Positions 16,593 to 26,783 of a stretch of 64,000 nucleotides of DNA are shown here, piece after piece. Below the pieces are notes generated by a model. It was given only the letters and a program-made list of their open reading frames with translations, was not told where the DNA came from and did not search any database. Each line of letters opens with the position of its first letter. Position 1 is the stretch's first letter. Source of the DNA: an uncultured Dehalococcoidia bacterium (GTDB lineage Bacteria; Chloroflexota; Dehalococcoidia; Lucifugimonadales; GCA-2712585); NCBI GenBank assembly GCA_951812825.1, contig OX638324.1, positions 2,107,141-2,171,140 of the forward strand, read 5' to 3'. Made by a program: the position numbers and the translations under genes.

Positions 16593-18797
16593 TCAGTTCG
16601 CTGCAGACTGGCTGGCAGTGTTGGAAACCAGCAGGTCTTTGCGGTTGCCCCACCGTTTGAAGAAGTGGCGGAAGTTCCTGCGGCTCAGCTGGTCCCGCTC
16701 TTCCTCGCCCAGGCTGGCCCACTGGCGATGCTCGTGGCGTACCAGGGGCAGGTCTCCGTCGGCAAGGATGCGGTAGCCCAGGTCCCGGAACTGGAAGCTG
16801 AAGTCCAGGTCCAGGTTGCGGTAGAAGCGGAAACACTCCCGGAGGAGGCCCGTTTCCGCCAGCAGCTCCCTGCGGAAGGCGAAGCAGTAGCCCTGCATGG
16901 CGTCGGCGTCGCCTTCCGTCATCTCTTCGTGGAAGTGGTGCAGGTTCTCGGAGATTATGCCCCAAGGGCCGGTGACGCCTATCTCGTCGTGCTTAAGGCT
17001 TTCGGCGATCCGAGGGAGAAAAGCGCCCACGGCTTCCACGGAAGTGTCCATCATGACGATTATTCGGCCGCGGCTCAGGGCCAGGCCGATGTTCTTGGCC
17101 TGGGCCTCGCCCAACTGGTGGTCGCAATGGAGGACCCGGACGCTTTCGTGACGATTCTGCATCTCCTCCAACCACTCGGCGGCGCCGTCGGTGGAGCCGT
17201 TGTCGACGACTACGATTTCGGCGTCGGAGTTCGAGCTCCAACGGAGGATGCCGTTGACGCAGCGCTTTACGTCGTCCAGATAGTCGCTGGCGGTGACGAC
17301 CACGGAGAAATCTTTAGTTGAGGGAGAGTTGAGATAGGATGGCGCTTCCCTGGGGGATGAAACGGAGGGCCAGCGCTCTTCCACCAGCTCGAAGGAGGTC
17401 TTGGGGCGGGCCATGGGGCCGTTGCGGGTGTCCCGCACCTGGTAGCCTTGCTCGCCGAGGTGGTCGCGGATGCGGTCGGAGCGTTCGTAGCTGCTGCGGG
17501 CACGGTAGCTTTCCCGGTCCGTGAGGGTGTTGAGGGTCTCCTGGGACAGGGGGTAGGAGTGGGGTACCCGGGCCAGGTCGAGGCCCAGGATCCGGTCCAT
17601 TTCGAGGAGCAATTCCAGTTTACGATGGCCGGGGAGGTCCGATTGGGCCATGCCCCAGGTAACGGAGAGGGCGCGGGGCATGTTGAGGTCGTCTTCCACG
17701 GCTTCCCGGAATTTTTCTACCCATTGCTGGCCGTCAGAGCCGTCGGCGCCGTTTACGCGAGAGTCGGCGCGCTGCCAGTTCCAGGCCCGGTCCCGCAGGC
17801 GGATGAGGCCGCGCTGGGCTGCCTTGAGGGCGGAGAAGGTGAAGTTCAGCCTTCGGCGGTACTTGACGGTGAGGCAGAGGTAGCGGAAGGCGAGGGGTTC
17901 GAATCCGCGCAGTTCCAGGTCGGCGAGGAGGAATTCGTTGCCGGCGGACTTGGCCATCTTCACGCCGTCGGCCAGCAGGTGCTGTCCGTGGACCCAGTGG
18001 CGAACGTAGCGGGTGCCGAAGGCGGCTTCGCTCTGGGCGATCTCGCCCTCGTGATGAGGAAAAATATTGTCCACGCCGCCGGTGTGAAGGTCCTGCTCCC
18101 GGCCGAGGTAGCGGGTGGACATTGCGGAGCACTCTATGTGCCAGCCGGGGAAGCCTTCGCCCCAGGGGGAGTCCCACTTAACGTCGCGGCCCGGCTCGGC
18201 AGCCTTCCAGAGGGTGAAGTCCCTGGGGTCGCGCTTGAGGGGGTCGGCTTCGACGCGGACGCCTTCCATGAGATCGTGGCCGAGGTTGCCGGAGAGCTGA
18301 CCGTAGGGCTCGTACTTAGCGACGTCGAAGTAGACGTTGCCCTGGGCTTCGTAGGCGTAGCCGTTCTCCATGAGCCGCCTGATGACGTCCAGCATCTCCG
18401 GGACGTGGCCCGTGGCGCGGGGGAACTCGTCGGCGGGGAGGATGTTCATCTTGGCTTCGTCGGCGTGGAAGGCCTCGGTGTAGAAGTCGGCTATCTCCCC
18501 GGGGGTCTTTCCTTCGGCCAGGGCGGCCAGGATAACCTTGTCGCCGCCTCGTTCCAGCTGCTCTTGCCGCATGTGGCCCACATCGGTGATGTTCTTGATG
18601 TGGATGACCTTCGTGCCCCCCTCGGCAAGGGCGCGCCTGATCCAGTCTGCCATGAGGTAGGAGCGCAGGTTGCCCACGTGGGCGTAGCGGTACACGGTGG
18701 GTCCGCAGGTGTAGATGCGGGCTACGCCGGGCTCCACGGTGGAGACTGGTTCAACGCGCTTGTTGAGGGTGTTGTATATGCGAAGCAAGGGATTCAC
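16593..18797 (-). CDS. cysS: Cysteinyl-tRNA synthetase fused to a family 2 glycosyltransferase
   Basis: Residues 1-460 are a complete class I CysRS, which charges tRNA(Cys) in the cytoplasm: zinc ligands Cys31, Cys223 and the HHEGE segment (248-252), the HIGH-type HVGN (40-43), KMAKS (280-284), and a C-terminal DALR-like region with SDRIRDHLGEQGYQVRDT. After a Ser/Pro-rich linker (about 462-495) residues 497-725 form a GT2 domain with FSVVVTASDYLDDV, VVVDNGSTDGAAEWL, a MMDTSVE metal-site candidate and LDFSFQFRDLGYRI. The frame is continuous through the junction with no stop or obvious frameshift. GTG start at 18797. A normal CysRS has about 460-480 residues. Confidence 0.93.
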   Translation of the reverse strand: MNPLLRIYNTLNKRVEPVSTVEPGVARIYTCGPTVYRYAHVGNLRSYLMADWIRRALAEGGTKVIHIKNITDVGHMRQEQLERGGDKVILAALAEGKTPGEIADFYTEAFHADEAKMNILPADEFPRATGHVPEMLDVIRRLMENGYAYEAQGNVYFDVAKYEPYGQLSGNLGHDLMEGVRVEADPLKRDPRDFTLWKAAEPGRDVKWDSPWGEGFPGWHIECSAMSTRYLGREQDLHTGGVDNIFPHHEGEIAQSEAAFGTRYVRHWVHGQHLLADGVKMAKSAGNEFLLADLELRGFEPLAFRYLCLTVKYRRRLNFTFSALKAAQRGLIRLRDRAWNWQRADSRVNGADGSDGQQWVEKFREAVEDDLNMPRALSVTWGMAQSDLPGHRKLELLLEMDRILGLDLARVPHSYPLSQETLNTLTDRESYRARSSYERSDRIRDHLGEQGYQVRDTRNGPMARPKTSFELVEERWPSVSSPREAPSYLNSPSTKDFSVVVTASDYLDDVKRCVNGILRWSSNSDAEIVVVDNGSTDGAAEWLEEMQNRHESVRVLHCDHQLGEAQAKNIGLALSRGRIIVMMDTSVEAVGAFLPRIAESLKHDEIGVTGPWGIISENLHHFHEEMTEGDADAMQGYCFAFRRELLAETGLLRECFRFYRNLDLDFSFQFRDLGYRILADGDLPLVRHEHRQWASLGEEERDQLSRRNFRHFFKRWGNRKDLLVSNTASQSAAN

Positions 18798-18880
18798 CTA
18801 TGCGTTACCCACAAATTGTAACATCTTGGTTGCCGCACTGCCCACTTTATGGGACGAGTTGAGGGGAATGGGAGGGTTTG

Positions 18881-18909
18881 TTGACACCGAATTTGCCGGT
18901 ATCTACAAT
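18881..18909 (+). promoter_or_regulatory. Sigma-70 type promoter of the zinc-ribbon gene
   Basis: Perfect -35 TTGACA (18881-18886), 17-base spacer, -10 TACAAT (18904-18909). Start near 18916, about 20 bases before the ATG at 18938 and just ahead of the GGAGAG ribosome-binding site. It may also serve rnpB downstream. Confidence 0.82.
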
Positions 18910-18937
18910 CTCGACTGGAGAGGGGGGATGGAGAGTT

Positions 18938-19639
18938 ATGGCTGTATCCAGGATATTGTACGATTTGCAGAACTTGGACCTCCTTTTGGACGAAGCGAAA
19001 GGCCGGGTCTCCGAGATTGAGTGCAGCCTGGGAGACCGGGATGAGCTGAAGCGCAGGGAGGAGGCGCTGGAGGAGCTTCGGGACCGCATGCGGGACCTGG
19101 ATAGGAAGCAGCGTAGCCTGGACCTCAGCTCAAAGTCTACGAAGGACAGGCTGGATGCGGTGGAGACAAAACTCTACGGCGGCACGGTGGCGAGTCCGAG
19201 GGAGCTCCAGGACCTGGGGCGGGAACTAGAAAACGTGAAGAGGAACCTGAAGGAGGTCGACGAGGAGGCGCTGGAGAACCTGGTCAGTTTGGAAGAGACG
19301 GAGCAGCAGGTATCGAAGGGGGAGGAGGAGCTGGTCCGGGAAGAAGCGGCCTGGTCGGAGGACCAGTATGGGATGGAGGTGGAGCGGCGGGAACTTCGGA
19401 CGCGGATCGGGGGCCTGGAGCAGCAGCGGAGGCAGGTGGCCAAGGGGGTGAAGGCACATTCTTTGGGGGTGTACGAGCGGGTGCGTCGCGCGAAGGAAGG
19501 GAGGGCGGTGTCGATGGTGGAGCAGGGGTTGTGCCGGGCCTGCGGCGTGACGCTGCCAACGCATTCGATACAGCGGGCGCGTTCTGGGGACGAGGCGGTG
19601 CAGTGCGGAAGCTGCAGCAGCATTCTTTATGCCAGTTGA
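18938..19639 (+). CDS. Coiled-coil protein with C-terminal C4 zinc ribbon (DUF164-like)
   Basis: 233 residues. About residues 10-180 form a long, highly charged antiparallel coiled coil. The C-terminus has CRACG and CGSC pairs forming a zinc ribbon (zf-RING_7 type). The family is widespread, is predicted to bind nucleic acid, and has no settled role. In Actinobacteria, homologs commonly sit beside rnpB, as here: the RNase P RNA starts about 80 bases downstream on the same strand. ATG 18938 was chosen over an upstream in-frame start because it follows the promoter and GGAGAG site. Confidence 0.85.
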   Translation: MAVSRILYDLQNLDLLLDEAKGRVSEIECSLGDRDELKRREEALEELRDRMRDLDRKQRSLDLSSKSTKDRLDAVETKLYGGTVASPRELQDLGRELENVKRNLKEVDEEALENLVSLEETEQQVSKGEEELVREEAAWSEDQYGMEVERRELRTRIGGLEQQRRQVAKGVKAHSLGVYERVRRAKEGRAVSMVEQGLCRACGVTLPTHSIQRARSGDEAVQCGSCSSILYAS

Positions 19640-26057: not shown

Positions 26058-26783
26058 ATGTCAGGATCGATTGCGCTGGCTGGGGGCGACGAGTTTCGCT
26101 CCGGCTGCAGAGGGATGGACACGGCGCTGCTGGAACTTTCGGGTTCCGACAGTCCGTCGGTGCTTGTGATTCCGACGGCTGCGGCCGCTGAGGGCAGGCC
26201 GGATCTGGCAGCAGCCAACGGAGTTTCGTACTTCAAGAGCCTGGGAGCGCGGGCGCTGCCACTGATGGTTGTCAACGCGGAGGACGCGAACGTGCCCGAG
26301 CTGGCGGTGGCGCTGGAAGGGTTTTCTCACGTGTACTTTTCGGGCGGGAGTCCGGACCATCTTCTGGGGGTGTTGAAGGGATCGCTGCTGTTGGAGCGGA
26401 TATTGGAGTGGAGGCGAGAGGGGGGCGTATTGGCCGGGTCCAGCGCAGGGGCGATGGTGATGGGAGAGTATATGCGGTCGCCGAAAGGGGGCCAGTGGGT
26501 GGAGGGGTTGGGAGTGTGTCCCGGCGTGGGGGTGCTGCCGCATCACGAGGGACGGGACCCGGGGGAGGTTTCGGCGAGCCTGGAGGGAGCGCTGCCGGAG
26601 GGGGTAAACGTGCTGGGGATTGACGCGCAGAGCGGCTGCCTGTTCAGCGACGGGGGTTGGGAGGTGTTGGGAGAGGGGAACGTTACCTTATACCGCGAGG
26701 GCAGGTGGAGCCGTTACGGTCCCGGAGAGAGATTCTTCACGGAATCTCCGAATGGGGCAGCCGGCGGGCTGCTGAAGGGGTAG
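26058..26783 (+). CDS. Peptidase S51 / cyanophycinase-like protein
   Basis: A 241-residue class I glutamine amidotransferase-like serine hydrolase. The nucleophile elbow is AGSSAGAMVMG (Ser at about residue 133), after HVYFSGGSPDHLL, the family's substrate-side loop, and before VLPHHEGRDPG with the catalytic His. Members include alpha-aspartyl dipeptidase and cyanophycinase, which cleave Asp-Xaa or Asp-Arg peptides. Here an M20 peptidase follows after about 50 bases, which supports a peptide-degradation role. The last 20 codons include GAGATTCTTCACGGAATC, resembling repeat family B, so a repeat may have extended the C-terminus. Confidence 0.85.
   Translation: MSGSIALAGGDEFRSGCRGMDTALLELSGSDSPSVLVIPTAAAAEGRPDLAAANGVSYFKSLGARALPLMVVNAEDANVPELAVALEGFSHVYFSGGSPDHLLGVLKGSLLLERILEWRREGGVLAGSSAGAMVMGEYMRSPKGGQWVEGLGVCPGVGVLPHHEGRDPGEVSASLEGALPEGVNVLGIDAQSGCLFSDGGWEVLGEGNVTLYREGRWSRYGPGERFFTESPNGAAGGLLKG

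Follow-up and report, generated by a model that had tools for sequence, protein, structure and literature searches.

A conserved fusion of cysteinyl-tRNA synthetase with a GT2-type domain in Chloroflexota, a possible tRNA-Cys-tethered transferase

In LysX (LysRS-MprF) and in ErdS, a fused transferase is fed by the aminoacyl-tRNA synthetase to which it is joined (PMC9437257), and the MetRS of Mycoplasma penetrans carries an N-terminal aminotransferase that makes the amino acid substrate (PMC7694997). A fusion of cysteinyl-tRNA synthetase (CysRS) with a glycosyltransferase was not found described in the literature that we searched, mostly outside the subscription journals. We analysed a stretch of 64,000 nucleotides (the window) from the genome of an uncultured Dehalococcoidia bacterium in which such a fusion is encoded. 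Pfam recognised only tRNA-synthetase and GT2-type domains in the protein, and an MprF domain or related aminoacyl-tRNA transferase domain was not found in it.

The window gene is a true CysRS-GT2 fusion. It lies on the minus strand at 16593..18797, with a GTG start at 18797 and a stop at 16593-16595, and encodes 734 aa in a single frame, exactly where a sequence-only reading of this DNA had placed a continuous 734-codon frame made up of a complete CysRS, a linker and a GT2 domain. All parts that follow are on the same strand. The CysRS catalytic domain (residues 1-330, 17808..18797), delimited by Pfam, residue conservation and the AlphaFold match to 1u0b_B, contains the zinc ligands C31, C223, H248 and E252, the HVGN motif (residues 40-43), W219 and the KMAKS signature loop (residues 280-284, 17946..17960). 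A helical bundle (residues 331-410, 17568..17807), drawn from the secondary structure of the model and lying inside the 1u0b match, leads to an anticodon-binding domain of the CysS_C type (residues 411-466, 17400..17567), assigned from conserved residues and from PF23493 at the same place in relatives. A linker (residues 467-494, 17316..17399) separates the two domains in the AlphaFold model and is followed by the GT2-type domain with a GT-A fold (residues 495-734, 16596..17315), identified through Pfam PF00535 and the predicted structure, within which a degenerate DXD motif, D584-T585-S586 (17040..17048), has Ser at the third position, the aligned PDB chain reading DCD. In the Pfam search, tRNA-synt_1e scored far above cut-off (E 7e-92, residues 20-328) and Glycos_transf_2 (PF00535) reached 67.7 bits against a cut-off of 23.3 (E 1.5e-18, residues 498-632), while TIGR00435 cysS gave 395.3 bits on the window protein, above its curated cut-off of 340.

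Whole-length, single-frame fusions were present in 44/98 genomes of the order at 42-76% identity (tallied by hand), and 2 further genomes held fragments at contig ends. Among 400 genomes drawn across the phylum Chloroflexota, the GT2 module was present in 107, fused to CysRS in about half of them, again by a hand tally, and in the class sample the count was 42/393; single-frame fusions recurred in many other families of the phylum. A CysRS with a GT2 tail thus proved common in Chloroflexota, as the search proposed in the sequence-only reading was to establish: of the 80 best matches in named genomes, 77 were single-frame fusions, mostly from this phylum (Dehalococcoidia, SAR202, Ktedonobacteria), and the single-contig chromosomes OY282371, OX638353 and CATOSD010000001 carry one. 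This recurrence in the same single frame, within the order and among the best named-genome matches, shows that the fusion did not arise through misassembly. The same reading had named two findings that would speak against it, absence of the fusion from every close relative, which the order-wide count contradicts, and a stop or frameshift at the CysRS-GT2 junction, which is absent in nearly all relatives; isolated stops or frameshifts in the fusion occur in a few (e.g. L075). When the window gene was compared with near relatives, dN/dS came to 0.13-0.25 in the catalytic part and 0.20-0.38 in GT2, dS being near saturation, and the linker is conserved within the genus (pN 0.08-0.15). These values point to purifying selection on both fusion domains, and, together with conservation throughout the phylum, they contradict the simple gene merger that had been considered earlier. 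Fusion genes also occur in two records named outside Chloroflexota, L206 (Desulfarculaceae JdFR-97) and L168 (Nitrospinota CSMAG_3060), through either horizontal transfer or misbinning.

The genome of the window, a single 2.47 Mb contig, encodes a second CysRS (L002, 491 aa, 34-40% identical) some 94 kb from the fusion. A separate full-length CysRS is present in nearly all fusion genomes, the few without one being incomplete or fragmented assemblies (e.g. G040, G233, G315), and since an ordinary CysRS nearly always coexists with it, the fusion is an extra enzyme. In a quick tree of 70 CysRS, the 22 fusions grouped together (SH-aLRT 99) and apart from the other CysRS of their own genomes, the one exception being a long-branched PDB row (Borrelia) among the fusions, the placement of which was flagged as unsure. 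Nearest to the fusion clade were unfused CysRS of families f72, f81, f82 and f84 and of genome G411. Among the canonical CysRS, His replaces the second KMSKS lysine in 4/23 rows, possibly those of family f82 (L105, L107, L123, L125), and such enzymes may be inactive or specialised.

Conservation in the CysRS half of the fusions was nearly complete. The zinc ligands (E. coli C28, C209, H234, E238), W205, T68, the HxGN motif and both KMSKS lysines are kept in 22/22 fusions, and the positions R, R, aromatic, D, R, D of the anticodon-binding domain, which we take to be contact residues from their roles in E. coli, in 21-22/22; R428, R432, D441, R444 and D456 of this domain hardly vary, or do not vary at all, across 46 fusions. 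The full-length AlphaFold model (pLDDT 87.2, pTM 0.84) matched 1u0b_B, the E. coli CysRS with tRNA-Cys, over 436 residues between positions 4 and 466 (Z 46.2, rmsd 2.6), a match equal to or better than that of every other PDB chain examined. From these residues and this model, the fusion is predicted to charge tRNA-Cys with cysteine. A KIIK-type motif, which is linked to cysteine persulfide synthesis, was also considered and set aside, the second Lys not being kept in fusions. The genome has one normal tRNA-Cys with a GCA anticodon and U73, as found by a pattern search that may miss unusual tRNAs, and these two features are the major Cys identity elements (PMC9976931). The window contains no tRNA gene and the loci of 60 relatives no tRNA-Cys, and a special tRNA adjoining the fusion gene was therefore rejected.

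The GT2 domain was modelled with confidence (pLDDT 92.4 for residues 411-734), and the best PDB matches of the GT-A model were ppGalNAc-transferases and GT2 enzymes, with Z 18-21. The first Asp of the DXD motif is kept in all but one fusion, and its third position is Ser in 39/45 fusions and Asp in 0/45; because it is never Asp, the domain may bind metal and nucleotide sugar in an unusual way, the usual mode possibly being absent. The earlier view that both parts look intact thus holds for the complete CysRS but not fully for GT2, in which Ser586 replaces Asp, and modelling of the GT2 site, which had also been proposed, returned a confident GT-A fold around this degenerate motif. In terms of its residues the domain is nevertheless conserved and not decaying: D663, H690, S705 and N708 do not vary among the 45 fusions, and FRFYRN...LSxxNF, a C-terminal motif, is retained in most of the phylum. 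Some fusions outside the order (L059, L060, L064, L067) end in a His-rich C-terminal tail (such as HEHRHWPDHAHSHPHLH), resembling those of metal-binding proteins.

We regard domain shuffling as the strongest clue. Stand-alone relatives of the GT2 domain, of about 280-340 aa, occur in f72, f81, f82 and f84. They lack the synthetase catalytic domain and yet start with the CysS_C anticodon-binding domain, in which PF23493 scored at or near cut-off and the contact residues are largely kept; proteins of about 300 aa that open in this way are found in Chloroflexota at L073-L087. Since the anticodon-binding domain stays on GT2 even without the catalytic domain, GT2 itself would seem to need, or to work together with, tRNA binding. 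In f84 (L078, L087) an unfused CysRS adjoins the stand-alone GT2, so that the fusion partners do exist separately in sister lineages, a point which the sequence-only reading had raised, and some f81 genomes have both the fusion and a stand-alone CysS_C-GT2. The GT2 tree made no distinction between gain and loss. An apparent loss of the synthetase in G079, which has a GT2-only fragment, was rejected, as the fragment lies at a contig end. Loss of nucleotide-sugar motifs has gone further in the stand-alone proteins than in the fusions, and several stand-alone forms are also without the uridine-binding Asp and the ARN motifs.

A candidate partner of the fusion is a cyanophycinase-like peptidase S51 encoded in the window at 26058..26783 on the plus strand, 7.3 kb away, with its SAGA nucleophile motif kept. 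Cyanophycinase-like S51 genes adjoin the fusion directly, with the same orientation and often an overlap, in f98 (L059, L066), f73 (L065), f144 (L088) and f93 (L063, L075 and probably L068). When two S51 classes were split by bit score, this class was found in 30/46 fusion genomes and 5/52 others within the order (p 1e-8), in 25/31 and 1/32 respectively when genomes at least 90% complete were taken, and with p 0.003 when one genome per family was used, statistics in which kinship is only partly controlled. The other, higher-scoring class had no significant association with the fusion within the order. In L071, an S51-like region precedes the CysS_C-GT2 (weak BLAST match, E 5e-5; SAGA altered; no Pfam call).

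Other neighbours were noted. An 87-aa HTH_3 gene of the XRE type (Pfam PF01381; 16320..16583, minus strand) lies 9 bp downstream of the fusion stop and is probably on the same transcript, and it is conserved only within the same family (L033, L034, L194). A CT398-type coiled-coil zinc-ribbon gene (18878-19639 of the window, plus strand) is a neighbour of the fusion in many of the order's genomes, and in family f82 (L081, L085, L086) one occurs near the stand-alone GT2 too. In L054 and L092 the fusion is followed by a gene of membrane type and by one with an AhpC/TSA thioredoxin fold, and a redox link is possible.

Our best explanation, plausible but held tentatively and by analogy with LysX and ErdS, is that the fusion may serve as a transferase tethered to tRNA-Cys, its synthetase being a second CysRS with no housekeeping role. 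The CysRS half would activate cysteine, charge tRNA-Cys and hold the tRNA by its GCA anticodon; the GT-A domain, placed right after the anticodon-binding domain, would act on or with the (Cys-)tRNA so bound, by handing the cysteine on or by modification of the charged tRNA or of an acceptor; and the cyanophycinase-like S51 peptidase would then process or recycle the product. Within this scheme we infer that the GT-A domain uses tRNA, and likewise what its donor, acceptor and product would be. It is favoured by the conservation, in every fusion checked, of the zinc, cysteine-binding, HIGH-type and KMSKS lysine positions, by the anticodon contacts and the match of the model to tRNA-bound 1u0b, by the retention of CysS_C on GT2 without the catalytic domain, by a coexisting ordinary CysRS and a normal U73 tRNA-Cys in the same genome, by S51 genes that share an operon with the fusion in f73, f93, f98 and f144 and co-occur with it order-wide, by the weakly matched S51-like region of L071, and by the precedents of LysX and ErdS (PMC9437257). 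It is weakened by the 16/46 fusion genomes without the S51 gene and by the greater loss of nucleotide-sugar motifs in the stand-alone GT2s. Direct transfer of cysteine would moreover require either extensive movement or another molecule, as GT2 is at the anticodon end, far in sequence from the loading site. To our knowledge, no GT-A domain uses aminoacyl-tRNA, which also counts against it.

The main rival takes the same contact between GT2 and tRNA to a different end, with the CysRS anticodon-binding domain holding tRNA-Cys while the GT-A domain glycosylates one of the bases of its anticodon loop, much as queuosine is glycosylated or glutamylated. GT2 directly follows the anticodon-binding domain in every form, and the stand-alone proteins consist of only these two; the confident fold and the four invariant residues of the fusions also favour it. 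We consider this reading somewhat unlikely, since the DXD motif is degenerate, several stand-alone forms are without the uridine-binding Asp and ARN motifs, and the S51 peptidase is left unexplained; nor do we know of such a modified base in the tRNA-Cys of these bacteria.

If the degenerate DXD motif is given more weight, the fully conserved synthetase could instead be an alternative or stress-time housekeeping CysRS that charges tRNA for translation, with a pseudo-glycosyltransferase in a regulatory role, sensing a nucleotide sugar or serving as a scaffold. Spare synthetases are common (review, PMC9437257). This is nonetheless unlikely, as the stand-alone CysS_C-GT2 persists without any fused synthetase and the conservation of FRFYRN...LSxxNF exceeds what a sensor seems to need.

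A third possibility is that the fusion, without any use of tRNA, ligates cysteine to a sugar to make a low-molecular-weight thiol, as a bifunctional counterpart of the mycothiol pathway, and it does place a glycosyltransferase and a Cys-activating domain on one chain; MshC is itself a CysRS paralogue (PMC2922099). However, an MshC-type enzyme needs no conserved anticodon-binding domain, and the conserved tRNA-binding end of the fusion makes a thiol pathway less likely. The CysRS half scored 229 bits against the MshC cut-off of 485.1 (TIGR03447), and in the CysRS tree, built without reference MshC, the fusions fall outside the separate clade of MshC-like short proteins, which lack the anticodon domain and in some genomes coexist with the fusion. 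On these three grounds, score, clade and anticodon domain, an MshC identity was rejected, and the cysteine-sugar thiol pathway suggested earlier is unsupported in an MshC-like form; a role in cell-wall assembly, suggested alongside it, found no support here. We regard the thiol-ligase reading as improbable. The short Chloroflexota paralogues themselves, of about 400 aa (L097, L101, L104, L110, L112, L114, L118, L120, L128), scored 354-397 bits, under the same cut-off, and going by sequence could possibly be mycothiol-type ligases. Finally, although the majority of genomes are metagenome-assembled, the chance that the fusion is an artefact of assembly or frameshift, or a neutral merger of two genes, is negligible, given the same single frame in dozens of independent assemblies and in single-contig chromosomes, with purifying selection on both domains and a conserved linker.

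The fusion represents a phylum-wide, conserved union of tRNA-charging and sugar-transferase protein families for which we found no description, and it suggests an undescribed role of cysteine tRNA outside ordinary protein synthesis. If tRNA-Cys, or the cysteine on it, is what the GT-A domain acts on, then aminoacyl-tRNA chemistry would have enlisted a glycosyltransferase fold in addition to the known transferases of the MprF and related types. More tentatively still, it is possible that this is a new class of tRNA-dependent enzyme, in which a GT-A domain guided by a CysRS anticodon domain acts on tRNA-Cys or Cys-tRNA-Cys in a pathway with a cyanophycinase-like peptidase. For annotation, the two CysRS genes of SAR202 and related genomes may have different jobs, and Chloroflexota 'glycosyltransferases' of about 300 aa can hide a CysRS-type anticodon-binding domain.

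Compared with known systems, the fusion shares with described CysRS (TIGR00435; 1u0b, 3sp1) the catalytic core, zinc site, signature motifs and anticodon-binding domain, but adds a C-terminal GT-A domain, forms a clade apart from the other CysRS of its genome and is not the sole CysRS of the cell. Like the CysRS* of Desulfobacterales, which charges SelC*, it is a second CysRS in a genome; CysRS*, however, is without the anticodon domain and linked to a special tRNA gene, and the fusion shows neither trait. MshC, the mycothiol cysteine ligase, is likewise a CysRS paralogue, but without the anticodon domain that the fusion has. With the GT2 family and the ppGalNAc-transferases (GT27) the fusion shares the GT-A fold, differing in a DXD that reads DxS, in its attachment to CysS_C and in its distinctive C-terminal motifs. 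The MetRS of Mycoplasma penetrans also has a catalytic domain appended to a synthetase, at the N-terminus where the GT2 of the fusion is C-terminal. LysX and ErdS, finally, join an aminoacyl-tRNA synthetase to a transferase-type domain as the fusion does; here, in contrast, a GT-A/GT2 domain takes the place of MprF or a relative of it, cysteine is the amino acid and the activity is a predicted one.
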